From Echinicola strongylocentroti (GTDB lineage: Bacteria; Bacteroidota; Bacteroidia; Cytophagales; Cyclobacteriaceae), in NCBI RefSeq assembly GCF_003260975.1, contig NZ_CP030041.1, positions 124,001-188,000 on the forward strand: DNA of 64,000 nucleotides, read 5' to 3'. The position numbers were made by a program, and so were the translations under genes. The notes beneath the pieces were generated by a model. The model had not been told where the DNA came from. It saw nothing but the letters and a program-made list of their open reading frames with translations, and did no database searches. Each line of letters opens with the position of its first letter. Position 1 is the stretch's first letter. This document shows positions 28,316-55,221 of the stretch, piece by piece.

Positions 28316-29566
28316 ATGAATAAACCCAGTTACTACTACCTGTTGTTTTTAAGTCTATTGGCTTTTGCCTGCGTGCAGGAAAGCATCGAAGAACCCAAAA
28401 TGGGAACGGTCACTTTCTCCAAGGTCGCTTTTGTACATTTTGGGAATATGTCGCCAAACGGCCGAATAGCGGCTGAATCCGAATGGAAGCACATCTTCAC
28501 CGAATCCGCCACGCTGCTCATCACCAACAAGGCCACTGGACAGGAATATACGTTGGAGTACGATCCCAATGACTTCACGGAAGCCTATCAGATCCAGCTG
28601 CCCTTTGGAGAATATACCGTGTTCTCGGCAGTGGAAGGCGGGGACTTTGAAACCTTCTTGCCCTTCACCATTTCCGGAGAATTTACCCTTGACGAAACCA
28701 GTCTCGACATCAGCCTTCAAGGCAGCACCGAATACGGATTGGTGACCGTAAAGAAGGAATTTGTCCAATCTGCCAATCTGGATGGAGAACATGAACTGGT
28801 GATCTGCGAGCATGGAGAGACCCTTTACCTCTATGTGAAAGAAGGCCTATCGCCCACCCTGACCATCTATGAAAGCTTCAATGGACAAGCCCTGCAAAAA
28901 GAGCTGGACATTTCAGCTTACAATCATTATCACCACTACCTCAAACTGACCGAAAGTCAAGGAATGGTAAACTTCATCGAACTGGCCATTGGGCCGTTTG
29001 AATATCATGAGGAGTACTTCGATGTGGGAGAAAAACCATTGCTAACAGTGACGGATGAGGAAGGCAGAACCTATGATGTGGTCAAAATCGGCGATCAGTA
29101 TTGGATGGCAGAAAACCTTATGTCTACTACTTTTTGTAATGGAGATGAACTCGAATCGATGTCCTGGGGTGTGATTCCTCCCTATTACGCTTCTTCTGTA
29201 CTTTCCGAGTCCAGAAATATCTGTCCTTGCAATTGGCACATTTCAACAGATGAAGACTGGCATACCCTCGAATCCTATTTGGGTCTACCGGATAGTGAAC
29301 TCTATGCACTTAACACCGAAAGAGGAAAGGGAACAAATACAGGATACATTTTAGGAATGGACTTTTATGGCTTTGGGCTTAGTTATTATGGATATATGCA
29401 ATGGGATCAAAGGTTCGAATCAGGCCTTTCAGCATATTTTTGGAGTGCTTCAAACGATGAAACAGGAGCCGTCGATACACTTTTGGCAAGAAATGTCGAT
29501 TATGGAATTTGGAGAAACTCAGTTGAATCGTGGTATGCGGTACCTATACGGTGTGTAAAAAATTAA
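28316..29566 (+). CDS. FISUMP-domain lipoprotein, paralogue 1
   Basis: Lipobox LAFAC (Cys19) is followed by VQESIEEPKMGTVTFSKV. Residues 20-240 form a beta-rich region; the last 170 residues match the Fibrobacter succinogenes major paralogous (FISUMP) domain: YDVVKIGDQYWMAENL, WHISTDEDWHTLESYLGL and the terminal VPIRCVKN. The domain's function is unknown; it is a disulfide-rich C-type-lectin-like fold predicted to be at the surface. This is the first of three tandem paralogues, 27 bp before the next, so they are likely cotranscribed. It diverges from the LacI gene across a 239-bp AT-rich region. Confidence 0.85.
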   Translation: MNKPSYYYLLFLSLLAFACVQESIEEPKMGTVTFSKVAFVHFGNMSPNGRIAAESEWKHIFTESATLLITNKATGQEYTLEYDPNDFTEAYQIQLPFGEYTVFSAVEGGDFETFLPFTISGEFTLDETSLDISLQGSTEYGLVTVKKEFVQSANLDGEHELVICEHGETLYLYVKEGLSPTLTIYESFNGQALQKELDISAYNHYHHYLKLTESQGMVNFIELAIGPFEYHEEYFDVGEKPLLTVTDEEGRTYDVVKIGDQYWMAENLMSTTFCNGDELESMSWGVIPPYYASSVLSESRNICPCNWHISTDEDWHTLESYLGLPDSELYALNTERGKGTNTGYILGMDFYGFGLSYYGYMQWDQRFESGLSAYFWSASNDETGAVDTLLARNVDYGIWRNSVESWYAVPIRCVKN

Positions 29567-29593
29567 ATTATTATCCCATTTACTCCTTTTATT

Positions 29594-30853
29594 ATGAAAA
29601 GTCTAATATTTCTTTCTTCTTTTCTTCTGCTCTTAATGGGCAGTTGTGTCCAAGAGAACCACGAAAAGCCTCAAATGGGGATGTTAACCATATCCGATAT
29701 TGTTTTACAGGATTTTGGAAATTATGCACTCAATAGCCGGATGTCCGAAGTATCGGAATGGAAACATATCTTCCCAGAATCGGCCACATTGCTCATTACC
29801 AACAAAGCCACTGGTCAGGAATATACCCTCGAATACAATCCAAATGATTTCACCGAGTCCTATCAGATACAATTACCCTTTGGGAAATATATCGTGTATT
29901 CAGAAGTGGAAGGCAGGGAACTAGAAGCCTTCCTGCCTTTTGTAGTCACTGGAGAATTTGCCCTGGACAATACCAGCTTAGATATCAGTCTCCAAGCCAA
30001 CACTGAATATGGATTGGTAACAGTGGCAAAGTCACCTCTCATCCTTGGGGCTGAATTAGGAGGGGATTATGGTCTATTTGATCTAAAGGACAGCCCATTT
30101 CTATATAGCTATTCTAAAGAAAGACAAACAAGACTTATAATCTCTTTGGTTGATAACGAATTTTACAAGGAAATTGGAAAAGGCCTGACCATTGACGCCT
30201 ATAACCATTACCACTTTTACCTTAAAGAAACAGAAAGTCAAGGAATGGTAAACTTCATTGAACTGGCCATTGGGCCGTTTGAATATCATGAGGAGTACTT
30301 CGATGTGGGAGAAAAACCATTGCTAACAGTGACGGATGAGGGAGGCAGAACCTATGATGTGGTCAAAATCGGCGATCAGTATTGGATGGCAGAAAACCTT
30401 ATGTCTACTACTTTTTGTAATGGAGATGAACTCGAATCGATGTCCTGGGGTGTGATTCCTCCCTATTATGCTTCTTCTGTACTTTCTGAATCCAGAAATA
30501 TCTGTCCGTGCGATTGGCATATTCCAACAGATGAAGATTGGCAAACCTTGGAATCCTATCTAGGCTTACCCGATAATGAACTTTATGCACTTAACACCGA
30601 AAGAGGCCGCGGAACCAGCACCGGATACATTTTACACAGTGATTATATTGGCCTCGCGCTTGAATATTCAGGATATATGAATTGGGACCAAAGATTCCAA
30701 ACAGGTCAGGCAGGCTATTTCTGGAGTGCCTCATTCGATGAAATGGGCGCAGTCGATAGCTTATTGGTCAGAAATATTGATGGTGGATCAGGAATTTGGA
30801 GAAGTTCCGTGGAATCATCGTATGCGGTGCCTATTAGATGCGTAAAAGATTGA
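29594..30853 (+). CDS. FISUMP-domain lipoprotein, paralogue 2
   Basis: Lipobox LMGSC (Cys18), then VQENHEKPQMGMLTISDI. Domain order is as in paralogue 1 and the length is nearly the same (419 aa). The block coding for ESQGMVNFIELAIGPFEYHE through SSVLSESRNICPC is almost base-for-base identical to paralogue 1 (30236-30510 against 28956-29230), while the central part around residues 150-195 has diverged and is more like paralogue 3. This mosaic pattern indicates duplication with gene conversion. Function is unknown. Confidence 0.85.
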   Translation: MKSLIFLSSFLLLLMGSCVQENHEKPQMGMLTISDIVLQDFGNYALNSRMSEVSEWKHIFPESATLLITNKATGQEYTLEYNPNDFTESYQIQLPFGKYIVYSEVEGRELEAFLPFVVTGEFALDNTSLDISLQANTEYGLVTVAKSPLILGAELGGDYGLFDLKDSPFLYSYSKERQTRLIISLVDNEFYKEIGKGLTIDAYNHYHFYLKETESQGMVNFIELAIGPFEYHEEYFDVGEKPLLTVTDEGGRTYDVVKIGDQYWMAENLMSTTFCNGDELESMSWGVIPPYYASSVLSESRNICPCDWHIPTDEDWQTLESYLGLPDNELYALNTERGRGTSTGYILHSDYIGLALEYSGYMNWDQRFQTGQAGYFWSASFDEMGAVDSLLVRNIDGGSGIWRSSVESSYAVPIRCVKD

Positions 30854-30881
30854 ACAATTGTCCCACTCAAAACTATCTATC

Positions 30882-32309
30882 ATGAAAAATTCAATTCTTG
30901 TTTATGCCTTCTTGGTACTTTTGATGAACAGTTGTGTGCAAGAAAACCACGAAGAACCCAAAATGGGTTTAGTGACTTTTTCAAATGTTGTTTTACAGGA
31001 TTTTGATAATTACTCGCCCAATAGTAGGGTATCGGAAGTGTCAGAATGGAACCATATTTTTAAAGACCAAGCTACCCTGATATTTACCGATAAAGCCACA
31101 GGAAATGAATACACACTGGAATATAATCCCAATGACTTCTCGGATGCTTATCAAATCCAGCTGCCCTTTGGGGAATACACCGTGTTTTCGGAAGTGACTG
31201 GTAGAAGTTACGACGAATTCCTTCCGTTTACTATTGAGGGAGAGTTTGACTTAGATGAAACCAGTCTTGACCTTACACTTCAAGGAACCACCGATTATGG
31301 ATTGGTAACAGTAGCAAAATCTCCTCTTATCAGAGCAGTCGGCATTGGAGGTGAGTACGATTTCTTTGACCTAGAAGGCAGTCCATTACTGTACATCTAT
31401 GCCAAGAAAGACCGGTCTACCTCTCTTTTTATCTATTTGACTGATGATCAACCTTTCGGTGAAATTGGAAAAGGCCTGACAATTGACGCCTATAACCATT
31501 ACCACTTTTACCTTAAAGAAACAGAAAGTCAAGGAATGGTAAACTTCATTGAACTGGCCATTGGGCCGTTTGAGTATCATGAGGACTATTTTGAGATCGG
31601 CGGGAACGAAGAAATCACCAGCGTGACCGATGTGGATGGCAACGAATACAAGGTGGTAAAAATCGGTGATCAATATTGGATGGCGGAAAATCTCCGTGCA
31701 ACCACCTACTGTGACGGAACACCGTTGGAAACATTTATGCCCCCTGGCATTACTATGCCCTATGGCTTTAACGAACAGCCTGACTATGCTTTCATAAAAG
31801 CGGATAGATACACCTTCGAAAACAATTATTACTACAATCGAGAAGTAGCTAGGAATGAGAAGAATATTTGCCCATGCAATTGGCATGTATCGACAGATGA
31901 GGATTGGATGGAACTCGAGCGCTACCTAGGTACACCCGAGTCTGACCTCTATAACCGCCGAAGAGGCTACGACCAAGAAGCAGCCGACCAACTCATGGCA
32001 CTGGACTGGCCTGACATCTATGGTGAAGTACCTCCCGAATTGAATATCACCAACTCCACGGGATTTACTGCTTACCCAAACGGCCGCTGGATTTATGACA
32101 TTGACGAAACTGGCGAAGGACTTCGCTGGAATGCTTTTTCGTCCAATGCCTGGTGGTGGTCTCCCAAAGAAGATTCGCTAAGAATGAGAAGTGTACAATC
32201 TGGAGACTTCTCAGTGTCACCTGAAGAACCTTCCGCAATTTACCGAATGGGTAGCTCCGATGGATTACAAGATGGCCATGTGTTGAGTATCCGTTGTGTC
32301 AAGGATTAA
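30882..32309 (+). CDS. FISUMP-domain lipoprotein, paralogue 3
   Basis: A TTG at 30858 is in frame, but the ATG at 30882 gives a standard lipoprotein signal (MKNSILVYAFLVLLMNSC, Cys18), so the latter is used. The N-terminal and middle regions match the other two copies (FSNVVLQDFDNYSPNSR, GKGLTIDAYNHYHFYLKETESQG). The FISUMP domain is longer and divergent, with DVDGNEYKVVKIGDQYWMAENLRATTY and the ending HVLSIRCVKD, closer to the canonical domain. It could be the ancestral form or one that has gained a new binding specificity. It ends 33 bp before the convergent permease gene. Confidence 0.85.
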   Translation: MKNSILVYAFLVLLMNSCVQENHEEPKMGLVTFSNVVLQDFDNYSPNSRVSEVSEWNHIFKDQATLIFTDKATGNEYTLEYNPNDFSDAYQIQLPFGEYTVFSEVTGRSYDEFLPFTIEGEFDLDETSLDLTLQGTTDYGLVTVAKSPLIRAVGIGGEYDFFDLEGSPLLYIYAKKDRSTSLFIYLTDDQPFGEIGKGLTIDAYNHYHFYLKETESQGMVNFIELAIGPFEYHEDYFEIGGNEEITSVTDVDGNEYKVVKIGDQYWMAENLRATTYCDGTPLETFMPPGITMPYGFNEQPDYAFIKADRYTFENNYYYNREVARNEKNICPCNWHVSTDEDWMELERYLGTPESDLYNRRRGYDQEAADQLMALDWPDIYGEVPPELNITNSTGFTAYPNGRWIYDIDETGEGLRWNAFSSNAWWWSPKEDSLRMRSVQSGDFSVSPEEPSAIYRMGSSDGLQDGHVLSIRCVKD

Positions 32310-36160: not shown

Positions 36161-38122
36161 TTAGTTCCCTACTATTTTTCTGATTACGTGATTGCCATAA
36201 TCCGCAAAGATTATTTCATCCCCATTCACGAGTACATCAGTTGGGCTATTTATTTTACTGGCAGTAGATGGACCATCAATATAACCTTCGCTATTGCTTC
36301 CTATGATAGTATTAACGTATTGTCCATTGATTTCCCTTATTAGATTATTGTCCAACTCTGCCACAAAAACCTTTCCATCTAGCCCCACTGCAACTCCATA
36401 AGGATCATCAAATTTCGCCACAGCAATATCACCATTTTCCATTCCTTCTCCATTTCCACCAGCGATAGTGGACACATTATTATAGCTATCTATTTTCCTT
36501 ATTGCGTGGTTTTTTCTATCTGCGACAAATACATTACCATTAGTATCTGTATCTATCCCCGAAGGATAGTAAAATTGAGCTTGAGAACCGGCTCCATCCA
36601 CATGTCCTACATTTCCGGTACCCACTATGGTCGAAACCTGTCCTGAGGAATCAATCATCCTAATGCAGTGGTTTCTATTATCTGCAATCACTATATTTCC
36701 ATTAGGCAATACCGCTACATCTGTAGGCTGGTCGAATTTCGCATGAGTACCACTTCCATCTTGATATCCGCTCGTAGTTCCTGCCAGGGTACTTACCGTG
36801 CCACCAGGTGTTATTTTCCTAATGGAATGGTTACCTCGATCCGCAACTATTACATTTCCCTGATTGTCCACAGCTACTTTCCAAGGACTGTTAAATTTTG
36901 CAACTCCAGCTAACCCGTCGGCAAAACCAGCTACTCCTGTCCCAGCAAATGTTGAGACATCTCCTGACGGACTTATTTTTCTTATCACATTATTGTCGCG
37001 ATCGGCTACGAAGATATTTCCTTGTTGATCAATAGCTATCCCTTCAGGATTATCAAACTTGGCTGTGCTACTGGAGCCATTTTGAAATCCTGCTATTCCG
37101 GTACCTGCGATGGTTTCGGTCTCATAAGGACACATATATACTAACCAAGAATTGACCAATTCTCGGTGGGAATTATTGGGGTTCCCGGGTAAATTCCTAA
37201 CCAATAGTTCATTGATTCCATAAGTTTTTGTCACAAAGGTGGAAGAACCTCCCCCGTCTAAATTAATTGCATTTTCTGCTCCCAAGGCGTAAAACACACT
37301 GGCCATTTCAGTATATTTCATTCCTGTGGACCCTGTATTATAGTTGGAATCGCGTCCATCCACCACAAACATAATCACTGTTCCGTCAGTCCTATACCCT
37401 ATGCCCGTCCTAGGATGAATGGAGTGTATGGTTTGACTTTGTATCTGGCCATTCTTTACCAAAAACACCCCTCCACCAGTTGCATTGAAGAGCTGACCAG
37501 ATGCCGCTGCATAATCATCTCTTCCACCTATCGTAGGCTCTTTGTTCTTATCTAATCCAAAAAAGGTAAGTCCTTGCTGTGGCTTTTCGGCGGTATGGGT
37601 ATAAACATCCTTAATGACTACTCCATTTTTATGAACAATCCCATGCGGAGGCCTTGGCAAGGTTTCATATTGGTTATCAATAAAGTCACCGTTAATAGCA
37701 GCGATGACTTGGTGATGTGTCGCATTCACTTCTTCTGCTTGGTTTTTAATAGTTTGAAGCCCATATCCATGTTGATTAAATGGTGTGCCCACTTCCATGT
37801 ATAGCCCAGGTATATTGAGATCGACCTCTAAGAAAAATACACGCATAGGATCTCCTGAAGGATCGACATACCTGATAATGGTTTCCGTTACACCAGTAGC
37901 TACCATCCTCTGTGACTCATCCACCACAGAATCGATTAGACTGGTGTTTTCTTTGAGTATTTGTGTTAAGTTATATTGACATGTACTTTGAGCTGACAAT
38001 GAAGCAACTTCTCCCTCATCGATCAAGCCTTTAGGGTCATCAAATGTGGTGCATGATAACATGGATACAAATGAAATTCCCAAAAGGACAATGAGTTTTA
38101 GGGTATTATTTATTCTTCTCAA
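36161..38122 (-). CDS. NAGPA phosphodiester glycosidase fused to NHL propeller, lipoprotein
   Basis: Lipobox MLSC (Cys24). Residues 70-330 are the NAGPA domain: AAINGDF (141-147), HPRTGIG (236-242), VDGR (254-257) and the signature NLDGGGSSTFV (287-297). Human NAGPA cleaves GlcNAc from a sugar phosphodiester; bacterial members act on phosphodiester-linked sugars, with exact substrates mostly unknown. Residues 336-653 hold about six NHL repeats of the form GNIFVADRDNNVIRKI, each preceded by an AGTGxAGFxDG loop, giving a six-bladed propeller likely to bind ligand. The two halves correspond to the separate NAGPA and TIG-NHL genes just upstream. Base composition appears AT-richer than in those genes, hinting at separate acquisition. 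Confidence 0.9.
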   Translation of the reverse strand: MRRINNTLKLIVLLGISFVSMLSCTTFDDPKGLIDEGEVASLSAQSTCQYNLTQILKENTSLIDSVVDESQRMVATGVTETIIRYVDPSGDPMRVFFLEVDLNIPGLYMEVGTPFNQHGYGLQTIKNQAEEVNATHHQVIAAINGDFIDNQYETLPRPPHGIVHKNGVVIKDVYTHTAEKPQQGLTFFGLDKNKEPTIGGRDDYAAASGQLFNATGGGVFLVKNGQIQSQTIHSIHPRTGIGYRTDGTVIMFVVDGRDSNYNTGSTGMKYTEMASVFYALGAENAINLDGGGSSTFVTKTYGINELLVRNLPGNPNNSHRELVNSWLVYMCPYETETIAGTGIAGFQNGSSSTAKFDNPEGIAIDQQGNIFVADRDNNVIRKISPSGDVSTFAGTGVAGFADGLAGVAKFNSPWKVAVDNQGNVIVADRGNHSIRKITPGGTVSTLAGTTSGYQDGSGTHAKFDQPTDVAVLPNGNIVIADNRNHCIRMIDSSGQVSTIVGTGNVGHVDGAGSQAQFYYPSGIDTDTNGNVFVADRKNHAIRKIDSYNNVSTIAGGNGEGMENGDIAVAKFDDPYGVAVGLDGKVFVAELDNNLIREINGQYVNTIIGSNSEGYIDGPSTASKINSPTDVLVNGDEIIFADYGNHVIRKIVGN

Positions 38123-38163
38123 GATTTAGCAATATCTAGATGGATGTTAATGTAGTTATTGGG

Positions 38164-38225
38164 AGTAACCCGTAATATGCATTGGCCTATCTAGTAGGAT
38201 TCCTAATGCATCAACCAGGTTTTAA
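38164..38225 (+). repeat. minimal R1 derivative, both ends joined
   Basis: TAACCCGTAATATGCATTGG followed by CCTATCTAG, joined directly to TAGGATTCCTAATGCATC and AACCAGGTTTTA, is the left and right end of R1 with the interior gone: about 62 bp against 193 bp for the full copy. Confidence 0.7.
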
Positions 38226-38250
38226 GAATCCCAAGGATCCTCAATGAAAA

Positions 38251-38344
38251 AAACCGTCATTGCACATGTAATGAAAACGAAGTGAAACAGACCTGTTATA
38301 CTGGAAACAAGGTTGCTCAACGACTTACATAGCAATGACGGTTT
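38251..38344. repeat. long-range inverted repeat downstream of the TIG-NHL gene
   Basis: AAACCGTCATTGC (38251-38263) and GCAATGACGGTTT (38332-38344) are perfect 13-bp arms 68 bp apart; the second arm ends 16 bp before the TIG-NHL stop codon. It may form a terminator-like stem-loop on the minus strand. Confidence 0.55.
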
Positions 38345-38360
38345 ACCATTAATTCCTACC

Positions 38361-39704
38361 TTATTCCCGTTCAATTATCCTTATCCTGTGGTTTCCTAGG
38401 TCGGCCACATAAATGACACCATCGTGGAAAGTCACATCGGTAGGGTTGTAAAACTGAGCGGTCACTCCTACTCCATCGAGGAAGCCACTTATCGATCCGG
38501 CAATTGTGATCACTTCCTCATTATTGATCAACCTGATCTTGTGATTGGACAGATCTGCTACGATCAGTTCACCGCCATTTCCCACGCTAATCCCATAAGG
38601 GTTGTTAAACTGGGCATTTGCAGGTTGGCCATCTCGTGTACCTTGTGAGCCGTCGCCAGCCACTGTGGTGACTTGACCAGTATTCAACTCTATTTTTCTG
38701 ATCAAATGATTGATCCGGTCGGCTACGAAAATGTTGCCTTGTGCATCGATGTCCAAACCAGAAGGGTACCTGAAAGTCGCTTCTTCCAATGTACCATTTT
38801 GATCTCCTTGCTCACTTCCAGCGATCGTACTGACCGTTCCATCCACATCGATTTTCCGAATGCGGTGGTTACGATTGTCTGCGACATAGAGCACCCCTTC
38901 CTCGGTCACGACTACATCCAGTGGCTGGTCAAACTGCGCTTCACCAGCGGCACCGTCATTATATCCGGCCTCACCAGTCCCTGCGACGGTACTTACCGTG
39001 CCTTGGGTATCTATTTTTCTGATGACGTGATTATCCCGGTCTGCGACATAGATATTGCCTTCCTGATCCACACAGGACTTCCAGGGATAATCCAACATCG
39101 CACCTGCCACCGGGCCATCCAAATAGCCCCTTTGACCAGTTCCCAGCACTGTGGTCACTGTCCCATCCAAGGTCACTTGGCGAATACTACTATTGCTCCT
39201 GTCCGTGACGATAAGAGAGCCATCAGGATGAACCGCCACCCCTTCGGGATTCCTGAAGGAAGCTCCATTGCCAACGCCGTCTACCAGGCCATAGTCACTG
39301 CTCCCTGCCAGCGTCGAAACCTTATAATTGGCAGGTCTGACCACATGGTTAAATTCAAGCGAAGCGCCATCGGCACTGACACCGTTTATGCTCAGCTCTA
39401 TCGTTTGCAGTCCCTCACCTTCGGGGACCACCACCTGAAGCCTACTGTTTGTTGCTTCCAAAACCGTGGCCGAAACCCCGTTGAAGGAAACGGCATTTGC
39501 TTCCCTGTTACCACTGAAATTCCTTCCTTGGATAGTTACCACATCCTTCGCATTACCTTCCTCAGGGCTCATGGCGTATATAAAAGGAGCCGAGCTGCTC
39601 TGGGGTGTCACATCGTCATTGTCACAGCCAAGAACAACCAAGGCCGAAAGGATGATGGCCAACAATGGAAATCTATACACACTTTTCATTTTTATATCCA
39701 TCAT
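38361..39704 (-). CDS. TIG-NHL lipoprotein, probable surface glycan-binding protein
   Basis: Lipobox VVLGC (Cys27). Residues 40-118 form an IPT/TIG immunoglobulin-like domain (PFIYAMSPEEGNAKDVVTIQGRNF). Residues 128-447 contain about six NHL repeats (GNIYVADRDNHVIRKIDTQGTVSTVAGTGEAGYNDG and similar), a beta-propeller. TIG plus NHL lipoproteins after susCD usually serve as surface glycan-binding proteins; that is inferred here. The stop of the upstream NAGPA gene is immediately followed by this ATG (TAGATGATG), so the genes are coupled. A second in-frame Met (MKSVYRF) could also be the start. The same propeller type is fused to NAGPA in the next gene. Confidence 0.85.
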   Translation of the reverse strand: MMDIKMKSVYRFPLLAIILSALVVLGCDNDDVTPQSSSAPFIYAMSPEEGNAKDVVTIQGRNFSGNREANAVSFNGVSATVLEATNSRLQVVVPEGEGLQTIELSINGVSADGASLEFNHVVRPANYKVSTLAGSSDYGLVDGVGNGASFRNPEGVAVHPDGSLIVTDRSNSSIRQVTLDGTVTTVLGTGQRGYLDGPVAGAMLDYPWKSCVDQEGNIYVADRDNHVIRKIDTQGTVSTVAGTGEAGYNDGAAGEAQFDQPLDVVVTEEGVLYVADNRNHRIRKIDVDGTVSTIAGSEQGDQNGTLEEATFRYPSGLDIDAQGNIFVADRINHLIRKIELNTGQVTTVAGDGSQGTRDGQPANAQFNNPYGISVGNGGELIVADLSNHKIRLINNEEVITIAGSISGFLDGVGVTAQFYNPTDVTFHDGVIYVADLGNHRIRIIERE

Positions 39705-40628
39705 CTATTCGTTTTCGTTTACCAAAATTGCCCAGCCATTTGCCACAGGACGTGGTGTCCCATCAGATGGACGGTTACGTACATGAAATACATCTTCTAA
39801 ACTGTGCAAGGTCACAAAAGTAGAAGAGCCGCCCCCATCGAGGTTTGTGGCATCCCGTACACCCAGTGCCTGAAATACCTCGGCCACTTCTGATAGTGAC
39901 AGCCCGTTGGAGTAATCAAACAGACGGCCGTCCACTACCATAAAATAAACCTCTTCGGCATCGGTAATACCGACCGCTGTCCTTGGATGGATGTCTTCGC
40001 TCGGGATAGGCACCAAATTATAATCCTTGATCAACAAGTCTCCAGCGCCCAAGGCATCGTACAATCCGTCCTGGAATTCGGGATAATCATCGGAATGCTC
40101 GATCACCAATCTCCCGTTTTCATCCACGCCAAAGAAGGACCTCCCTACCATTGGGGTCGTCTTGATGGCCTCTCCGTGGAGATGGACTACACCACGGGGC
40201 TCTCCGGTATCCATATTGAAAAAATCGGCATTGACACCGCCCACGACTTTCTTTCCGGGCACATCCACCCATTCCATCATTTCAGGAATCGGCTGCATTC
40301 CAAAACCACTACTCGCAAATGGCGTCAGCGGAAACAGTTCAACGCCCTCCTCTTTCAGGTCTATCTTAACTACAAACATCCGCATGGTAAGTCCCTTCAT
40401 GGACAAATAATGGATATCTGTCTCCTCCACCCCAGGAGCCACCGTAAAGGTCGTGTCCCAAAATACTTCGCTGACCAACTCAGTACTGTCGGCTAGTCTT
40501 TGGGTGATGGGGCTCAGTTCTTGGTCCAGCACTGCCGGCTGGGTATCGTCGTTTTTACAGCTGGCGGCCATCAAAACCATAGAGGTCGCCAACAGAAATG
40601 TATAGTAGTAATTGATGTATTTTTTCAT
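39705..40628 (-). CDS. NAGPA phosphodiester glycosidase lipoprotein
   Basis: The frame runs from 40682, but the ATG at 40628 gives a proper lipoprotein signal (MKKYINYYYTFLLATSMVLM, Cys24 in AASC), so the shorter 307-aa form is chosen. The NAGPA motifs are all present: GGVNADFF (130-137), HPRTAVG (214-220), VDGR (232-235), NLDGGGSSTFV (262-272). It should hydrolyse a sugar-1-phosphodiester bond at the cell surface or in the periplasm. It lies 22 bp after susD and is followed without gap by the TIG-NHL gene, all in one operon. The aligned region shares motif order with the fused protein at 36161 but the two are clearly diverged. Confidence 0.9.
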   Translation of the reverse strand: MKKYINYYYTFLLATSMVLMAASCKNDDTQPAVLDQELSPITQRLADSTELVSEVFWDTTFTVAPGVEETDIHYLSMKGLTMRMFVVKIDLKEEGVELFPLTPFASSGFGMQPIPEMMEWVDVPGKKVVGGVNADFFNMDTGEPRGVVHLHGEAIKTTPMVGRSFFGVDENGRLVIEHSDDYPEFQDGLYDALGAGDLLIKDYNLVPIPSEDIHPRTAVGITDAEEVYFMVVDGRLFDYSNGLSLSEVAEVFQALGVRDATNLDGGGSSTFVTLHSLEDVFHVRNRPSDGTPRPVANGWAILVNENE

Positions 40629-40650: not shown

Positions 40651-41949
40651 TCAATATCCCGGGTTTTGTTCCAGTTTTTCATTTAACAACAACTCCGTCT
40701 CCGGTATGGGCATGAGGGTTTCGCGCTGCTGTATGCCCAATTCTTCCACGGCCTTTCCCGTCCGTACCAAGTCCACCCATCTGAAGCCTTCGGCAAAAAG
40801 CTCCCTTCTCCTCTCTTCCAAAACCAGCTCAAGGTAGTCCTCCTCGTTGGAAGGTGACACCGGCGTTAGTCCGCGGGCTTCCCGAAGTTCATTGAGCCGA
40901 TCGAGTCCTGCCAGTCCCTGCGCCTCTGCACTGATCAAGTACATCTCGGCCAGCCTGCTCACGTTGAGCTGGTCTGTACCGGTCTGGCCACTGGGGTATT
41001 TATTGACCACGTCCAGTCCATCATAGGTATCCACAGAAACTTCCGCCCGTAAATCCGATCCGGAGAACATTTCCATCGCCCAAGGGTTGGGCTTGAAAAC
41101 ATACGAACCACTCTGGGGATGGGCATAGGTGTAAAACAGCGTGGAAAGGTTGATGCTGGACTCAATGGTGAGATTTACAAAAGCAAAAATCAACTCACTG
41201 TTATCCTGTCTCCTGAACATTTTATCAAAACTATCCAAGCTGAGATAGGGCGAATTGATCAGTTCTTCGGCCAAGGTAGCCGCTTCGTCCATTTTTCCCT
41301 GCCCCAGCTTGGCACGGGCCATCAGGGCTTTGGCTGCTTGGCTGGACACATAGTTGAAATCACCGCCCAGTTCACCGTTGAAATCCGGAGCTTGTTCGAT
41401 GGCCACTGACAGGTCCTCCTCGATAAATTGCCAAACCTCCTCGGCCGAATTCCTTGGCAACTTTTCTTGGGTATTTTCCCTGATGATCGGTACACCGCCA
41501 AATTTGATCAATAAATTATAATAGATATAGGCCCTGAAGTAGTGCGCCGTTCCGTTTACCTGATTGATCCTATCGGAAGGAGTCATCTCCTTGACATTGG
41601 CGATCAGGGTATTTACCTGATAGAGTGCCTCGTAGTATCCTTTCCAGGAACTGTTGACATACCCGTGCTCTGGGCGAAGGATATTGCTGATAAAGGCATT
41701 GGTACCGCCGCCATTGGTAGACCCGGCAGAATTGAGGTCTCCCCCCACCAGATCGGGCAAAATGTACGATTCTCTTCCAGGATCGTTCTGAACAGACTGA
41801 TAGACACCGATCAGGAACGATTCCACATCATCTTCGGTAAGGTCAGATTCCGAAGAGACGGCCGACCGCGGATAAAGGTCCAACTGATTACCACAGGCAC
41901 TGGCAAGCATAAGTACCAGCAGGCCTAGGGACATTATTTTTATATTCAT
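40651..41949 (-). CDS. SusD/RagB-family lipoprotein (locus 2)
   Basis: Lipobox ASAC (Cys19), then GNQLDLYPRSAVSSESDLTEDDVESFLIGVYQSV, the usual SusD beginning, and the RagB/SusD ending RETLMPIPETELLLNEKLEQNPGY. At 432 aa it is shorter than the other two SusD proteins here (531-532). It is 21 bp downstream of susC and 22 bp upstream of the NAGPA gene. It should hold the oligosaccharide released at the surface and pass it to SusC. Substrate is unknown but the only enzymes in the operon are phosphodiester glycosidases. Confidence 0.95.
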   Translation of the reverse strand: MNIKIMSLGLLVLMLASACGNQLDLYPRSAVSSESDLTEDDVESFLIGVYQSVQNDPGRESYILPDLVGGDLNSAGSTNGGGTNAFISNILRPEHGYVNSSWKGYYEALYQVNTLIANVKEMTPSDRINQVNGTAHYFRAYIYYNLLIKFGGVPIIRENTQEKLPRNSAEEVWQFIEEDLSVAIEQAPDFNGELGGDFNYVSSQAAKALMARAKLGQGKMDEAATLAEELINSPYLSLDSFDKMFRRQDNSELIFAFVNLTIESSINLSTLFYTYAHPQSGSYVFKPNPWAMEMFSGSDLRAEVSVDTYDGLDVVNKYPSGQTGTDQLNVSRLAEMYLISAEAQGLAGLDRLNELREARGLTPVSPSNEEDYLELVLEERRRELFAEGFRWVDLVRTGKAVEELGIQQRETLMPIPETELLLNEKLEQNPGY

Positions 41950-41970: not shown

Positions 41971-44900
41971 CTAGAAAGCCGCATTGAGCCCCAATCGGAT
42001 TGTTCTGGGCTGGGGCAGGTTCATGTTGTCATCTGCCATAAAGCGGGCATCGTAATTTTTGGATACCTCAGGATCCAGTCCTGAATAGTTGCTGAACAGG
42101 TACAGGTTTTCACCTTGGACAAAAACACGTAGCTTGCTCATCTGAAGCTTATCCAAAATGGACTGGGGCAAAGAATAACCCAAACTCAAGGTCCTCAACC
42201 GCAAGAAAGATGCGTCTTCGAGAAACCGGGAAGAGTTATACGTATTGTATCCAGTGCCGTGTATGGCCCTAGGGACTTCATTGCTGGTACCTGGTCCCGT
42301 CCATCGCTCTAGGGCAGGCTCCTCTCTAAATCCTTGTCTTCCACTACCCAATCGATCCGTCGTAATCCTCCAAGTGGCATAGATCTCCGACCCTTGGGAG
42401 AATGTCAGGAAGGCACTGAGGTCAAAATTCTTGTACTGGAACGTATTGGACCAGCCACCGTAAAAGTCGGGGTTGGAAGTACCGATGATCTGGCGGTCGT
42501 CCACATTGATGATCCCGTCGCCATTGACATCTTCATAATGCACATCTCCTGCACGGACTCCCTGGTCGTACAATTGTTCCGGCACTTCCTCGTCTGTCTG
42601 GAAGATTCCCAGCATTTTGTACATATAAAAACTGCCCACTTCTTCTCCCACCTGTAGGGTCCTATTGGCGCCGATCAGCAGGGGATCGTCACCCAGCAGC
42701 GAGGTGAGTTCATTTTGGATAAAGGAAATATTAAAGCTGGACTGCCATTGCAATTCACCAAATTGTTGATTGTAATCAAACAGAAATTCCAACCCTGTAT
42801 TCCTCATAGAACCGATATTACTGGTCACACTGCTAAATCCACTGGTCGCATGGATGGGCATATTGTACAGCAGGTTTTCGGTGTTTTTAATAAAGTAGTC
42901 AGCCGAAATATTGGCCTTTCCGCTCCACAGTCCCAGATCTATCCCCACATCAAACTGATTGGCCGTCTCCCAAGTAAGGTTGGGGTTTCCAAAAGTGGAA
43001 ATGGACAGGCCACTGTTTCCACCATAATTGGCACCTCCACTCATCAGGGCTTGGTAGGCATAGCTCCCGATGCCATCTTGATTACCCGTAGCGCCATAAC
43101 TTGCGCGCAGCTTTAGGTCCGTTTGGGAAAATTTCCAGAAGTCCTCATCCGACACGTTCCATCCGGCAGAAATGGACGGGAAAGAACCATAGCGTTTTTC
43201 GGGCGAGAACTTGGAAGACCCATCCGCTCGGATGGATAGTGAAAGCAGGTACTTGTCCTCCCAGCTCAGGTTGGCACGGCTGTAATAGGATTCAAGGGCA
43301 TTTTCTCCAAATCCCGAGGTGGCATTGGCAATCTCACTGGCCACAGACAGCACATCAAAAGAAGGCGAAGGAAATCCCCTACCATCGATGTAGTTGGTGC
43401 TGGTGGTCACTTTTTGGTAGGAATGCCCCACCAGTGCATTCACGGTAAGCTTCCCAAATGTGTGGTCAAAATACAGGGTGTTTTCGATCAGTCCATTGGT
43501 CATCATCCTTCGCTCGTCCAGTAGACGCCCCTGCCCTGCCCCATAAGGATGCTCATCAGTGTAATACAGGTAATCTTCCGTATAAATGGCATCAAGACCA
43601 AAGGTGTTTTTCAGGTGAAACGAAGGACTGAACTTGATGTCGGCATAGGCATTTCCCAGCATTCTATAATTGTCCAATTTCGTATTTTGCTCATTGATGA
43701 TCTGCATGTTGTTATGGTATACCAACTCATCGGTTCCGCCTACATAATATTCCCCGTTGGGCTTATATGGCCTGTCAAACGGCCGCTGTCCCATGCTTCG
43801 CAGAAAAATAGATGATCCATAGGTACCATTTGGTACGCGGTGGTTTCTCGAAAAACTCAGGTTGGTATTCGTCCCGATTTCCAGCCAATTTACCGCTTGG
43901 TGGGTCACATTGATCTTGGCATTGTACTTCTTGTAATCATTGGTCTTGAGTACCCCTTCTTGGTTTAGGTAACCACCAGAAATGTAAAGTTTCGTTTTCT
44001 CACTCCCACTGGAAAAGGAGACGTTGACATTGGAAACCAAGGCATCCCTCAGCACCAAGTCCAGCCAATCAGTATCCGGCAGTCCGGGATAGGGGTCCTC
44101 CATATAATCCACGAAATTCCCGTCTCCAGGTGAATAGCCATTTTGCTCGTTATAGTTATAACGGGCTTCATTGAGCACCTCTAGGTACAGGTCCGAATCG
44201 GCCATTTTTAACTTATCCAAGTTCGGAAGATACTGGACGCCAAAATTGGTCTGGATATTTAGGCTTGATTGTCCCACTTTTCCGGACTTGGTGGTGATGA
44301 TGACTACACCGTTGGTGGCTCGTGAACCGTAAATGGCCGCAGATGCGGCATCTTTAAGCACTTCGATGGATTCGATGTCATTCGGATTAAGCTCGGACAG
44401 CGGGTTCATGCCTTCTCCGAGGTTAAAAAGCGCTGCATTATGGTTGACCAACGGAATACCATCTACTACATAGAGGGGTTCATTTTGTCCACTTAAGGAA
44501 CCTATACCGCGAATACTCACACGGATATTACTACCGGGTGTGCCCGCTCCAGCACCGACATGGACTCCCGGCATCCTTCCCTGCATCATCTGATCTGGCC
44601 CCATTACCTGTCTGAAGTTCTTTTCATCTGGCCGGAAGTTGGAGATGGCACTGGTCACTTCCTTTCTGTCCTGCTGACCATAGCCAATGACCACGATTTC
44701 TGAGAGATCGTTTTCTGAGGGCCGAAGGGTAACCGCTAGTTTACTACGGCCATTTACAGGGATTTCCTGGGGATCATACCCGATAAAGGAAATGACCAAT
44801 ATGGCATTTTCGGACAACCCATTGAAGGTGAATTTCCCATCCAAATCAGTGACTGTTCCTTTAGAGCCTCCCTTCACCCGAACGGTCGCACCGGGCAGCG

Positions 44901-45321
44901 GCTCTCCATCCGTGCTGATTACCGTACCAGTAACCGTTATAGCTGCTGGATCATCAGTGGTCTTTGGCTTGATGACAATATAGGTATCCACCAGCTGGTA
45001 GGTAAAAGGTTGGTTGCTGAAGACCTTCGTCAGTGTGGTTTCGAGGGATCCGCTCTTCACGTCCACATACACGGGGCGGGATTGGCTTACTGTTTCATCA
45101 TTGAACACAAACCGGTATTCGGATTGCGATTCTATCATTTCCATCACTTCTATCAGTGGAAGCCCTTGGGCTTTTAGCGTCAAATCCTGGGAATGGACCT
45201 TGGCCGTTACCTGAAAGACGAGTGATAAGCATAAGATTAGTGTCCATTTCATAACCAAAAGGTAATTGGGTGGAGCAAAAGATACCCCGTGTCCACCTTG
45301 TCTTAAGTGGGTTAATTTCAT
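41971..45321 (-). CDS. SusC TonB-linked transporter with STN signalling domain (locus 2)
   Basis: The 1116-aa protein has a signal peptide ending near VHSQ, then an STN (secretin/TonB N-terminal) domain at about 45-120 (LTLKAQGLPLIEVMEMIESQ). A carboxypeptidase-like domain (ITVTGTVISTDGEPLPGATVRVKGG) follows, then the plug (NDIESIEVLKDAASAAIYGSRATNGVVIITT) and the barrel, ending PRTIRLGLNAAF. The STN domain contacts the periplasmic part of FecR to report substrate binding, and the fecR gene is directly upstream. This gives a trans-envelope circuit SusC-FecR-sigma that switches on the locus when its glycan is present. Confidence 0.95.
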   Translation of the reverse strand: MKLTHLRQGGHGVSFAPPNYLLVMKWTLILCLSLVFQVTAKVHSQDLTLKAQGLPLIEVMEMIESQSEYRFVFNDETVSQSRPVYVDVKSGSLETTLTKVFSNQPFTYQLVDTYIVIKPKTTDDPAAITVTGTVISTDGEPLPGATVRVKGGSKGTVTDLDGKFTFNGLSENAILVISFIGYDPQEIPVNGRSKLAVTLRPSENDLSEIVVIGYGQQDRKEVTSAISNFRPDEKNFRQVMGPDQMMQGRMPGVHVGAGAGTPGSNIRVSIRGIGSLSGQNEPLYVVDGIPLVNHNAALFNLGEGMNPLSELNPNDIESIEVLKDAASAAIYGSRATNGVVIITTKSGKVGQSSLNIQTNFGVQYLPNLDKLKMADSDLYLEVLNEARYNYNEQNGYSPGDGNFVDYMEDPYPGLPDTDWLDLVLRDALVSNVNVSFSSGSEKTKLYISGGYLNQEGVLKTNDYKKYNAKINVTHQAVNWLEIGTNTNLSFSRNHRVPNGTYGSSIFLRSMGQRPFDRPYKPNGEYYVGGTDELVYHNNMQIINEQNTKLDNYRMLGNAYADIKFSPSFHLKNTFGLDAIYTEDYLYYTDEHPYGAGQGRLLDERRMMTNGLIENTLYFDHTFGKLTVNALVGHSYQKVTTSTNYIDGRGFPSPSFDVLSVASEIANATSGFGENALESYYSRANLSWEDKYLLSLSIRADGSSKFSPEKRYGSFPSISAGWNVSDEDFWKFSQTDLKLRASYGATGNQDGIGSYAYQALMSGGANYGGNSGLSISTFGNPNLTWETANQFDVGIDLGLWSGKANISADYFIKNTENLLYNMPIHATSGFSSVTSNIGSMRNTGLEFLFDYNQQFGELQWQSSFNISFIQNELTSLLGDDPLLIGANRTLQVGEEVGSFYMYKMLGIFQTDEEVPEQLYDQGVRAGDVHYEDVNGDGIINVDDRQIIGTSNPDFYGGWSNTFQYKNFDLSAFLTFSQGSEIYATWRITTDRLGSGRQGFREEPALERWTGPGTSNEVPRAIHGTGYNTYNSSRFLEDASFLRLRTLSLGYSLPQSILDKLQMSKLRVFVQGENLYLFSNYSGLDPEVSKNYDARFMADDNMNLPQPRTIRLGLNAAF

Positions 45322-45420: not shown

Positions 45421-46611
45421 TTAGTGAGTGGTGTTTTTTACATAGACTGTTCCGTTTTTAAGTTCAAAATCAATTGCCCCAGACATTTCCAGCATGCCCA
45501 ATACCTTGGACAGATTGGTATCCATCGATATGGTGCCACTAAAATGCTTTTCGGGAATATCTCCATCAAAAGAGACCTTGATGGCATACCATCGTTCCAA
45601 TTGCCTCAAAATATCCTCAAGCTTGGTACGCTTGAACATAAATAGGCCATCCTTCCAAGCCACCACCTGTCGAGTGTCTATCTTACTTACCGAAAGCTGG
45701 CCATTTGAGAGCGCTTGTTCTCCAGGTGAGATGACCTTGCTCTTATCTTTATGGGAAACCTCGACGCTCCCTTCCAATAAGGTGGTCTTTGTCAAGGGCT
45801 CGTTTTCATAGGTGTTGATGTTAAAATGCGTGCCCAGTACCTTCACTTCAGTATCGTTGGCCTGGACGATAAAAGGTACTTCAGGATCGTGGGCGACTTC
45901 AAAATAACCTTCTCCCTTAAGCGTCACTGTTCGGGATGATCCGGTAAAATTGGACGGAAAAGCCAAGGACGAGGCACTGTTAAGCCAGACCTTGGTCCCG
46001 TCTGCCAACACCACTTGGTATTTGCCTCCCTTTGGCACAAAAATCTTATTTACTTTGCTTTCGGGAGTGGTATAGTCTTTCCTTACATTAAATATCACTT
46101 GATCAAGCCGTTTGTCGACAGTGATGCCATTATCCTCCTTTAACGTCCCTTCTGCAGCTCCTTCAAGAAGGATCTCTTCCCCATCTGGGAGGATCAAAAT
46201 GGCTTTGTCCGTTCCCGGCTCCACATCTACGGTAGCCAGCGTTCCTTGGTCGGTAGGCGGCGCAATGGACAACCATCCACCGTATATCCCCCAGCCCATT
46301 ATCACCACTGCCAACATCGCTGCCGCTGCTGCATAGCGGATCCACCATTTTTTCTCTTGATTTTCTCTCTTGCCGCTGGATGGAAGGTGCTGCTTCAGCT
46401 TGCCAAAGGCCCCTTTGGAATCTATGGAAGAGAAGAAAGCCATCTCTTCTTCCAGTAAATGCTCTTGGCTGATACGCTCATAAAAATCCCTGTTCTCTTG
46501 GCTCTGGGAAAGCCAATCCTCCAAACGGTCGCGCTCGACTTCCTCCAGTGTTCCCTTAAGGCTCTTTAGGATAAGCTGAGTATATATATGAATATAATCT
46601 TGCTCGTTCAT
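45421..46611 (-). CDS. FecR-family anti-sigma factor (locus 2)
   Basis: Residues 1-90 form the cytoplasmic sigma-binding part; a membrane span follows (WWIRYAAAAAMLAVVIMGWGIYGGWL). Then come the FecR domain (VFVPKGGKYQVVLADGTKVWLNSASSLAFPSNF near 195-225) and a C-terminal DUF4974 secretin-like domain (MFKRTKLEDILRQLERWYAIKVSFDGDIPE) that contacts the STN domain. It holds the partner sigma factor until SusC signals. The length of 396 aa is normal. It is 101 bp after the sigma gene. Confidence 0.95.
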   Translation of the reverse strand: MNEQDYIHIYTQLILKSLKGTLEEVERDRLEDWLSQSQENRDFYERISQEHLLEEEMAFFSSIDSKGAFGKLKQHLPSSGKRENQEKKWWIRYAAAAAMLAVVIMGWGIYGGWLSIAPPTDQGTLATVDVEPGTDKAILILPDGEEILLEGAAEGTLKEDNGITVDKRLDQVIFNVRKDYTTPESKVNKIFVPKGGKYQVVLADGTKVWLNSASSLAFPSNFTGSSRTVTLKGEGYFEVAHDPEVPFIVQANDTEVKVLGTHFNINTYENEPLTKTTLLEGSVEVSHKDKSKVISPGEQALSNGQLSVSKIDTRQVVAWKDGLFMFKRTKLEDILRQLERWYAIKVSFDGDIPEKHFSGTISMDTNLSKVLGMLEMSGAIDFELKNGTVYVKNTTH

Positions 46612-46712: not shown

Positions 46713-47282
46713 TTAACAATTAATTAACAAAACAAGAACGTATAAGACTTCCGGATTTAGGCGTAACCGCAAGAGTTTAAGTCCCCGTTGCTTTTGGGTT
46801 TTTACGGTATTGATAGATACCCCGAGTTGGTCGGCTATTTCCTGGTTGGACTTCCCTTCCAAAAAACCTAAAGTGGAAATTCTCCTGCATCCTTCAGGAA
46901 GTGCTTCCATCGCAGCATAGAGCTCATTCAACACCTCTGAGTGGATCATCCGCTGGACGATGGACTGGTCTTGGTTCGATATCTCCGCCATTCCATCATC
47001 TATTCCCAAATTGTGTTTTTGATCACGAAGGGCATTGATACTCCTGTTCTTGACAGCTTTAAAAAGGTAGTTTTGGATATACGGTATTTCATGCTCCAGA
47101 AGCTCCTCCTTTTGCGCAAACTGGATAAATACTTCCTGCACGATGTCCTCAGCGAGATCTTTGTCTTGGACAAATTGAAAACAAAAATAGACCAGTTTCT
47201 TATGAAAATTATAAAACACCTCTTCCAGTGTAGGCTTGGGGCCTATTGGAAATATACTGGTCTGGTCATTCATTTTTTTCAT
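46713..47282 (-). CDS. FecI-like ECF sigma-70 factor (locus 2)
   Basis: Region 2 is seen in DLAEDIVQEVFIQFAQKEEL (near 40-60), and region 4 in FLEGKSNQEIADQLGVSINTVKTQKQRGLKLLR near 138-172, the helix-turn-helix that reads the -35 element. The 189-aa length and absence of further domains fit the ECF group, Bacteroidota FecI branch. The start may be the second Met (MNDQT). Released from FecR, it is expected to transcribe the susCD operon. Confidence 0.93.
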   Translation of the reverse strand: MKKMNDQTSIFPIGPKPTLEEVFYNFHKKLVYFCFQFVQDKDLAEDIVQEVFIQFAQKEELLEHEIPYIQNYLFKAVKNRSINALRDQKHNLGIDDGMAEISNQDQSIVQRMIHSEVLNELYAAMEALPEGCRRISTLGFLEGKSNQEIADQLGVSINTVKTQKQRGLKLLRLRLNPEVLYVLVLLINC

Positions 47283-49222: not shown

Positions 49223-50818
49223 TCAATACCCGGGATTCTGACGTAAGCCTGGGTTTACTTTTAAGCTACTTTCAGGAAATGGCCATTGGTACTGATGGTT
49301 GGAAAACGTCCTGTCTTCAATCTTGAGACTGGTCACCTGTCCATTTTCTTTTCGTGTATGGCCTAATGCTGACTCGTTCAGCACCTCTTCGGCTATTCTC
49401 CACCGCAGAATGTCTGCGTAGCGCAAGCCTTCTCCTGCAAACTCAACCCTTCTTTCATTCCGTACCAAGTCGATCCATTCCTCTTGGCCATAGCTGCTAA
49501 AGGTAGGAAGGGTCACATTGGCCACACTCATGTCCAGTCCAGCTCGCTCCCTGACTTGATTGATGCATTCTTTGGTCAATGCATCCACTTCCCCCATCAT
49601 GATCTTGGCTTCCGCATAGGTCAACAGTACTTCCGCATACCTCAATAAACCGTATTCCATGTTGCCATTTCTGAATGCATCATTTTCAGAAACAAACTTC
49701 TTAAACCAATAGCCCGATTTACTAGCCCTTTGGTTTTCGTAAAACATCGGATTATTGGAGTTGTAGATATCGATGGTTTCCCCGTAGAATTCATCCCCAT
49801 GCCCCATGATAGAAGCTTGATAGCGTGGGTCCCTGTTCAGGTCTGGGTCTAGCTCATACTCTTCCTTGGTGTGAAGTGGGCAGTTCTCGATAGTCCTTCC
49901 TTGCTTGGTCCAGTAGCTGTCCACCAGGGATTTCAACGGCACGCAATAGGACTGGCCATTGCCTGTACGGAAGTGCGGCCCCAAATCCCTGAAGGAATAA
50001 GAAGTGCTTCCGCTGTGGCTCTCTTCGTCCAAGTGCACAATAAATTCATCGTTGTTGGAGGCCGCTTCATACTGGAAAAGATCCCCGTAATTTGGGTGCA
50101 AGCTATAGTTTCCACTGTCCATAATTTCCTTGGCCATTCGGGCGGCCAGCTCATACCGTCCGTGGTACAGGGCATAACGCATGATCACGGCTTTCAGGGA
50201 CAATTGGTTAAACATATATTTGTTGGAGGTGTATTCATCCATGGGGAGCTGATTGGCTATTTCCTCTGCCATAGGAAAGATGGTTTCCAAAATTTCCTCC
50301 TTGGGCATCGCTGGCTGCCTGGCATCATCGAGGTCAGCCGGCTCCAGCGTAAAGGGCACATCTCCCCAGTAGAACGTGAGTCTAAAGTAATGCCACATCC
50401 TCAGACCTTTCAGGATATTTTCATATCGGGTCCTGATGCTTTCATCTTCTACATAGGGTTCGCTGATATTATCGATATACGTGTTGAGCCGGCCCACATG
50501 CTTCATATAGGTCGCATAATAATACTCCATCCCAACGTTACTGGCATTCAGGGTTCCATTGGCGATGGCTTGGTGGTGGTCGCTAAAATCCCTGGCGTAT
50601 GCATTGTCAGATCGACCATCCAGCATATACAGTAAGCTCCTTCTATTGCTGTGATGGGTAAAGACGTCATAAAAACTACTATAGGTAACCCTTCTGAGGT
50701 CGTCTTCATCATTGAAGAATTCCGTAAATGAGGTAGCCGTTGGATCGGTCTTGTCCAGAAAGGTTTCACACCCCGAAAGGATAAAAACGGAAACGATTAT
50801 ACAAATTACTTTTTTCAT
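49223..50818 (-). CDS. SusD/RagB-family lipoprotein (locus 3)
   Basis: Lipobox LSGC (Cys17), then ETFLDKTDPTATSFTEFFNDEDDLRRVTYSSFYDVF; the C-terminus ends FPESSLKVNPGLRQNPGY, the typical SusD tail. Helical TPR-like segments (ILKGLRMWHYFRLTFYWGDVPFTLEP) support the SusC interface. At 531 aa it is of usual size. It follows susC by 13 bp and closes the operon on R1. With a pectate lyase nearby, pectin-derived oligosaccharides are the likely ligand (inferred). Confidence 0.95.
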   Translation of the reverse strand: MKKVICIIVSVFILSGCETFLDKTDPTATSFTEFFNDEDDLRRVTYSSFYDVFTHHSNRRSLLYMLDGRSDNAYARDFSDHHQAIANGTLNASNVGMEYYYATYMKHVGRLNTYIDNISEPYVEDESIRTRYENILKGLRMWHYFRLTFYWGDVPFTLEPADLDDARQPAMPKEEILETIFPMAEEIANQLPMDEYTSNKYMFNQLSLKAVIMRYALYHGRYELAARMAKEIMDSGNYSLHPNYGDLFQYEAASNNDEFIVHLDEESHSGSTSYSFRDLGPHFRTGNGQSYCVPLKSLVDSYWTKQGRTIENCPLHTKEEYELDPDLNRDPRYQASIMGHGDEFYGETIDIYNSNNPMFYENQRASKSGYWFKKFVSENDAFRNGNMEYGLLRYAEVLLTYAEAKIMMGEVDALTKECINQVRERAGLDMSVANVTLPTFSSYGQEEWIDLVRNERRVEFAGEGLRYADILRWRIAEEVLNESALGHTRKENGQVTSLKIEDRTFSNHQYQWPFPESSLKVNPGLRQNPGY

Positions 50819-50831
50819 GGTCTTTTCTTGA

Positions 50832-54038: not shown

Positions 54039-54078
54039 AAATTTGTAAATGTTAACTGATGTTAATGAAATCGATATG

Positions 54079-54114
54079 GCCCGTACCTGCTGCAATCAGG
54101 TAGGGGCTTTTTTT
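54079..54114 (-). promoter_or_regulatory. hairpin between fecR and susC (locus 3)
   Basis: GCCCGTACCTG (54079-54089) pairs with CAGGTAGGGGC (54097-54107, one mismatch) and is flanked by T7 on the plus strand. Its position and orientation match the hairpin at 45388-45420 of locus 2. Confidence 0.55.
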
Positions 54115-54147
54115 GTGTGAGGTTTGACAACGTGTTACATAGGCATA

Positions 54148-55110: not shown

Positions 55111-55221
55111 TCATTGTGTCCTTTGACCTGATAGTGGAAATTATTGGGGGGTGCACCTATAAAAAATTGAGGTTATAGGTGGATTTAACGATTATATAAC
55201 ACTGATAAAAATAGGGTAACA

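Follow-up and report, generated by a model that had tools for sequence, protein, structure and literature searches.

A SusCD-type locus of Echinicola strongylocentroti encoding a predicted phosphodiester glycosidase and an NHL propeller as separate and as fused lipoproteins

On its minus strand, the stretch of Echinicola strongylocentroti DNA analysed here (the window; 64,000 nucleotides, positions 124,001 to 188,000 of contig NZ_CP030041.1, NCBI RefSeq assembly GCF_003260975.1) carries a row of seven genes running from 47282 to 36161. They encode, in this order, an extracytoplasmic function (ECF) sigma factor, a FecR-type anti-sigma factor, a SusC-type transporter, a SusD-type lipoprotein, a NAGPA protein, an IPT/TIG-NHL protein (TIG-NHL) and a fusion of NAGPA with an NHL propeller. 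With a probability that we put at about 0.6, these genes specify a SusCD-type outer-membrane capture and uptake system in which the predicted phosphodiester glycosidase acts as the surface enzyme and an NHL propeller as an exchangeable binding module, which in the fusion is wired to the enzyme. An earlier note on this DNA had proposed that the propeller presents a phosphodiester glycan to the glycosidase, but it missed the SusC-SusD-ECF-FecR context, which most likely gives the NAGPA/NHL pair its role; the genes are better described as a locus for sugar-phosphodiester utilization whose propeller-type binding protein is exchangeable.

The operon and the fused gene behind it

The operon has both the adjoining SusC and SusD genes and the dedicated regulators of a SusCD-type polysaccharide utilization locus. 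The ECF sigma factor (46713..47282, 189 amino acids; Pfam Sigma70_r2/r4_2) and the FecR-type protein (45421..46611, 396 amino acids; FecR, FecR_C) are followed by the SusC-type TonB-dependent transporter (41971..45321, 1116 amino acids; Plug, CarbopepD_reg_2, TonB_dep_Rec_b-barrel and an STN domain) and the SusD-type lipoprotein (40651..41949, 432 amino acids; SusD-like_3, SusD_RagB). The separate NAGPA lipoprotein (NAG1; 39705..40628, about 307 amino acids; PF09992, E 7.4e-39) has a lipobox and then CKNDD; its open reading frame (ORF) can extend to 40682, and the start at 40628 is preferred because the closest homologues among those listed have 304-312 amino acids. One base behind its stop codon begins the TIG-NHL lipoprotein gene (38361..39704, 447 amino acids), which matches PF01833 at residues 40-110 (E 1.4e-10) and PF01436 (E 2e-42), with the TIG domain at approximately 39375-39587 and a six-bladed propeller, its blades assigned by alignment, at approximately 38364-39320. 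The fused lipoprotein gene (36161..38122, 653 amino acids) has a TTG start codon and begins 238 bp behind the TIG-NHL gene; PF09992 (E 1.9e-36, residues 138-329) is followed by PF01436 (E 6.3e-38), the NAGPA domain lying at approximately 37127-37987 and the propeller at approximately 36164-37126.

Pfam profiles thus agree with the earlier note that a NAGPA-NHL fusion stands beside separate NAGPA and NHL genes, the separate NHL gene holding in addition the IPT/TIG domain, which had gone unmentioned. The two NAGPA proteins score 126.3 and 134.1 bits with PF09992, for which the curated cut-off is 25, and the six-bladed propeller is closed by NHL repeats, as in NHL beta-propellers. Across the 6,252,144-bp genome, PF09992 gave two matches and PF01436 gave 10 repeat matches (E <= 0.001), all within these three ORFs, so that chance adjacency is no fair explanation, although PF01436 is a 28-position model and weaker NHL repeats could escape such a search. 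Nor is the fused ORF an artefact of a single assembly, since it has homologues elsewhere, one with 92% identity over 97% (P0001) and four with 47-49% identity over 92-100% of the ORF (P0016, P0020, P0041 and P0059). A plasmid collection searched with the fused protein yielded 60 records, none of which reached 80% query coverage, and the matches were to the NHL part only.

A structure model built from 74 sequences gives the fused protein a confident two-domain fold, superseding a six-sequence run with a pLDDT (predicted local distance difference test) of 68.1 in which the NAGPA half was poor; with strands modelled at 325-330 and 333-339, no linker is left between the domains. The NAGPA motif residues N, D, PR, DGR, NxDGGGS, T, N and R, which we take to be the catalytic residues, are retained in 34/34 NAG1 and 7/7 fused rows. 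Lipobox patterns, on which the lipoprotein calls depend, were found in 24/27 NAG1, 3/3 fused and 11/15 NHL proteins. By the same pattern TIG-NHL occupies the position of SusE: its gene lies behind SusD, and its product has a cysteine after the signal and an Ig-like (TIG) N-terminal spacer.

Recurrence in other genomes

NAGPA domains are common in bacteria: PF09992 was matched in 109 of the 296 genomes sampled across the phylum and in 46 of the 245 in the window's family, and a closer NAGPA profile (A1) matched 26 of 201 genomes of a second family (G002, taken as Sphingobacteriaceae) and three of 395 in a random sample of the class, the window's own included. A total of 161 NAGPA loci were mapped. 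Flanks were fetched for the 100 best-scoring places of the phylum search, and 30 of the 46 NAGPA-bearing family genomes were covered, again including the window's own; short or duplicate loci (L001-L032) were excluded from the final maps. A contig scan gave a single locus, L003 (Echinicola arenosa), its patterns having been built from one NAGPA sequence.

NAGPA lies within 1.3 kb behind SusD in 35 of the 161 mapped loci, and NHL is present in 13 of these 35 compared with 1/126 of the other NAGPA loci; NAGPA neighbours outside this genome do therefore include NHL proteins, and they do so in two families. Where NAGPA is directly behind SusD (27 loci), the next gene encodes NHL in 13, a BACON-type protein in 10 and neither in four, the last (L174, L176, L178 and L180) having instead a second NAGPA between ECF and FecR. 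NHL is, then, one of at least two exchangeable modules at that gene position, being replaced in other loci by the BACON type. Nine of the ten BACON-type loci (L182-L190, whose BACON-type proteins are lipoproteins) form one homologous group, among whose scanned members L182 and L187 have BACON (L182 together with a beta-helix match) and L185 is without a Pfam match; the tenth, L069, has BACON. The 13 NHL loci comprise eight from Echinicola, one from elsewhere in the window's family and four from the G002 family. One of these four (L175) repeats the window's order from FecR through SusC, SusD, NAGPA and TIG-NHL to the fusion, with a type I phosphodiesterase behind it; ECF is nearby, but it is separated from FecR by an opposite-strand gene of 351 amino acids.

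The association was also recovered from the side of the propeller. With a TIG-NHL profile (A4), nine of the 245 family genomes gave a match of at least 714 bits, and in each the matching gene directly follows a NAGPA that adjoins SusD; the highest score below these was 448 bits, and in the 201 G002-family genomes the four best (at least 524 bits) were the NAGPA neighbours of L173, L175, L181 and L177. By equal size of the longest contig, 13 of 34 close NAGPA protein clusters could be matched to a TIG-NHL cluster.

A conserved propeller rim

Eight residues, E154, W208, D263, N277, S315, R330, Y370 and L385 of TIG-NHL (E360, W414, D468, N482, S521, R536, Y575 and L590 of the fused protein), are kept in the two window propellers, which are only 48% identical (151/315). 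All eight are found in 35/37 separate TIG and 6/6 fused propellers, and at most three of them in any of 104 generic propellers. Strand A starts and strand B ends sit on one face of a propeller, and in the structure models every one of the eight lies where strand A begins or immediately after strand B, forming a rim. Similarly, 10 of the 12 positions that are conserved in both kinds and rare elsewhere map to strand A starts or strand B ends, which make up 24 of 319 positions (p 4.6e-11, a descriptive value, the strand-end places having been picked after the list was seen). We take the conserved rim as a putative ligand site, and the pattern common to both kinds of propeller suggests that they may hold the phosphate-bearing sugar that would also be cut by the enzyme.

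Alternatively, the propeller could serve for docking or as a spacer, keeping the enzyme attached to SusCD without itself binding a glycan; the fusion would then merely secure the enzyme's position within the complex. BACON-type proteins can replace the propeller, NHL propellers often bind proteins, and the fused protein is modelled as linkerless, all of which would suit docking. The conserved residues (E, W, D, N, S, R, Y and others), however, line a rim of polar and aromatic character rather than clustering in a single patch on the outer surface; this rim is common to both kinds of propeller, even though the fused propeller already has its own enzyme attached; and it differs in other SusCD loci (NYGATRWL in the TIG-NHL proteins of L196 and L179), as expected for ligand specificity. 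We therefore regard docking as the foremost of the alternatives, yet as an improbable one.

Proposed mechanism and substrate

For the capture and uptake system favoured here, the following course may be envisaged. The TIG-NHL lipoprotein would substitute for a SusE-type surface binding protein, holding a sugar-phosphodiester on its propeller rim; the NAGPA lipoprotein would cleave the sugar-1-phosphate link at the cell surface; and SusCD would import the cleavage product, with ECF/FecR sensing its uptake. The fused protein would be a second copy; its binding propeller belongs to the same clade and is attached to NAGPA without a linker, such that one rigid body would carry out both capture and cutting. 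The genes present and their order, their recurrence, the clades, the rim signature, the conservation of the NAGPA motif and the confident model of two domains are results of this analysis; surface location, rim binding, the substrate (a phosphate-linked sugar, perhaps alpha-N-acetylglucosamine, alpha-GlcNAc), catalysis and the hand-over from propeller to glycosidase are what we infer.

Several observations weigh against this reading. Eight of the 13 NHL loci come from one genus and are hence not independent, and 14 of the 27 loci with NAGPA directly after SusD are without NHL. Two TIG-NHL proteins adjacent to NAGPA carry a different rim, with one (L181) and two (L177) of the eight residues. 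Conversely, the fifth-best TIG-NHL of the G002 family (504 bits) has six of the eight (EWDYCRYL) in a locus without NAGPA, L195 (391-9978), which encodes in order SusC, SusD, two EEP phosphodiesterases, TIG-NHL and the alpha-N-acetylglucosaminidase NAGLU; the 10 kb covered there contain no NAGPA, and its genome is not among the 26 with an A1 match. The fused gene, furthermore, is possibly transcribed apart from the operon. Between it and the TIG-NHL gene lies a minus-strand hairpin with a T-run (38235..38365), a possible terminator or attenuator with a minimum free energy of -40.3 kcal/mol (z -4.60; as low in 0/200 shuffles), and such a strong hairpin, together with the 238-bp gap, means that the fused gene may have its own transcription. 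The closest relative with a fusion (L033) has a 14-bp hairpin counterpart at the matching place; a simple terminator scan does not list the window's hairpin, the loop being too long for it, and gives no excess. The claim of the earlier note that the two domains act as a unit is accordingly kept in part: shared NHL clade, shared rim and recurrent adjacency make it plausible that NHL and NAGPA act together, but their partnership is not obligate, as the BACON-type loci (10/27), those with neither module (4/27) and L195 indicate.

The neighbouring enzymes of some loci point towards phosphate and N-acetylglucosamine, but their weak enrichment counts on the negative side, as does the lack of any other glycan enzyme in the window's operon. 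EEP, GH20 and GDPD genes occur in L177, GH20, GDPD and alkaline phosphatase genes in L182, and the two EEP genes and NAGLU in L195. When SusD-associated loci were compared with the others, GH20 and GDPD were each found in 3/35 versus 2/126 (p 0.07 for both), EEP in 2/35 versus 0/126 (p 0.046), alkaline phosphatase in 1/35 versus 0/126 (p 0.22) and type I phosphodiesterase in 1/35 versus 2/126 (p 0.52); these p values are uncorrected, weak and mostly not significant, and the substrate is not argued from the counts. A phosphate-linked amino sugar is our guess. More tentatively still, this class of SusCD loci might import glycans joined through sugar-1-phosphate, perhaps alpha-GlcNAc-1-phosphate, in which case NHL would be a new carbohydrate-binding module, the rim code E-W-D-N-S-R-Y-L would mark phosphodiester or alpha-GlcNAc targets, and the fusion would be a capture-and-cut enzyme. 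The alpha-GlcNAc link is drawn from the NAGPA family name and from the single locus L195, where a nearly identical rim occurs with NAGLU and two EEP phosphodiesterases.

The system might also remodel or recycle a phosphate-containing surface polymer of the cell itself, in place of foreign nutrients. In several bacteria the targets of NAGPA families are polymers of the cell envelope or secreted ones, and the absence of another degradative enzyme from the window's operon would agree with such a role. The combination of ECF/FecR with SusCD is, however, the usual arrangement for importing external substrates, and we consider recycling distinctly unlikely. A search of the genome for a Stealth-type (PF11380) sugar-1-phosphate polymer synthase gave no match, an uninformative result, as control genomes likewise gave none.

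Phylogeny of propellers and NAGPA domains

In the NHL tree, the operon propellers (25 TIG, eight fused and two others) group in a single clade apart from the 45 generic NHL rows, with a support of 98 in the Shimodaira-Hasegawa-like approximate likelihood ratio test (SH-aLRT), and a smaller, more careful tree recovers the same clade (99/94) against six generic rows. Of the 104 generic rows, 45 were picked at random for this tree, as were 12 of the 30 TIG rows listed separately, and the generic ones are matches to our own queries (60/120 and 79/120 listed) as opposed to a random sample of NHL proteins. Fused and separate propellers hence share both a clade and the rim signature, and do not belong to unrelated NHL subfamilies.

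The NAGPA tree unites all seven fused rows in one clade (99), which lies within the SusD-adjacent clade and groups with the NAG1 proteins of L175, L181 and L177 (SH-aLRT 98). A second NAGPA is present in 12 of the 27 loci: it is fused in three, stands as an unfused third gene (NAG2) in five, and lies between ECF and FecR (NAGecf) in four. The NAG2 proteins of other Echinicola, the third-gene NAGPA of L044 and the NAGPAs between ECF and FecR fall in a separate branch (97), and these different branches and positions indicate that a second NAGPA joined the locus several times. NAG2, the third gene of four Echinicola loci and L044, had been considered as a split form of the fused NAGPA and was rejected for its distant branch; the fused and the unfused third gene are hence different genes, not alternative forms of one. 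No lipobox pattern was found in NAG2 or NAGecf, except for one doubtful match in nine. By these sequence patterns NAG1 and the fused protein look like lipoproteins, and NAG2 and NAGecf like soluble exported proteins, a division that would fit one surface step and one periplasmic step. The distantly related second NAGPA, apparently an exported non-lipoprotein, was observed in L034-L037, L044, L174, L176, L178 and L180, at two different positions.

The fusion could also have arisen by chance from a duplicated NAGPA/NHL gene pair and carry no functional message, which we hold to be very improbable. In its favour, the domain order equals the gene order, the fused NAGPA groups with the three NAG1 proteins of L175, L181 and L177, and in the careful NHL tree the TIG-NHL of L175 is placed among fused rows (84/67), as a duplicated pair would give; the best such tree, moreover, does not unite the fused rows in one clade (a single clade is not rejected in the approximately unbiased test, p-AU 0.093). 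Against it, fused proteins with 47-49% identity are maintained in two families and retain all eight rim residues in 6/6 and the NAGPA motif residues in 7/7 cases.

Relation to known systems

To our knowledge, few bacterial NAGPA domains have a known physiological role in nutrient use, and the conserved SusCD system around NAGPA offers such a setting together with a testable class of substrates. The NAGPA domain is homologous to the catalytic domain of the mannose-6-phosphate uncovering enzyme (PDB 6pki, 6pkg, 6pku and 6pky; E 2.5e-18 for 6pki, with NxDGGGS aligned), which takes GlcNAc off GlcNAc-1-phospho-6-mannose in the secretory pathway. The Bacteroides ovatus protein BACOVA_00430 (PDB 3ohg, DUF2233/NAGPA), reportedly the subject of Das et al. 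2013 (JBC), is in its entry a separate single-domain protein without NHL, unlike the fusion. An IPT/TIG-NHL protein of Bacteroides thetaiotaomicron (PDB 3hrp; also 3tc9 and 4hw6) is only distantly similar in sequence to the window propeller (21% in a structural alignment), and the entries give no function.

Surface binding proteins and enzymes assemble on SusCD, according to PMC7618045. As described there for SusE/SusF, other surface glycan-binding proteins and utilisomes, the window has a lipoprotein gene downstream of SusCD beside that of a surface enzyme; here, in contrast, binding is assigned to an NHL propeller and cleavage to a predicted phosphodiester glycosidase, and a complex is only proposed. 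PMC10404256 describes BtuG as a seven-bladed propeller lipoprotein whose central cavity accommodates the ligand and which forms a cap over its TonB-dependent transporter. The window system resembles it in the predicted use of a beta-propeller surface lipoprotein with such a transporter, and differs in having six blades and SusD as the lid, BtuG being itself the lid and binding vitamin B12. A search of a single open-access library found no paper on the combination of NAGPA with NHL and SusCD. The separate and fused pairs provide two ready cases for how a binding module aids a phosphodiester glycosidase and, if the proposal is true, the NHL propeller would join the modules that Bacteroidota use for glycan capture.

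Neighbouring genes

Directly upstream of the operon, at 49223-55800 on the minus strand, a second set of SusD, SusC, FecR-like and ECF-like genes was recognized from ORFs read by eye. Downstream of the fused gene lies a PiT-type phosphate transporter (PF01384; 32343-33365, minus strand), which was dropped as evidence of function because, among the mapped loci elsewhere, it was found only in L033, the close relative with a fusion. On the plus strand, 28316-32309 holds three successive, similar lipoprotein-like ORFs of 416, 419 and 483 amino acids, the first of which matches Fib_succ_major (PF09603), the other two being alike by eye.

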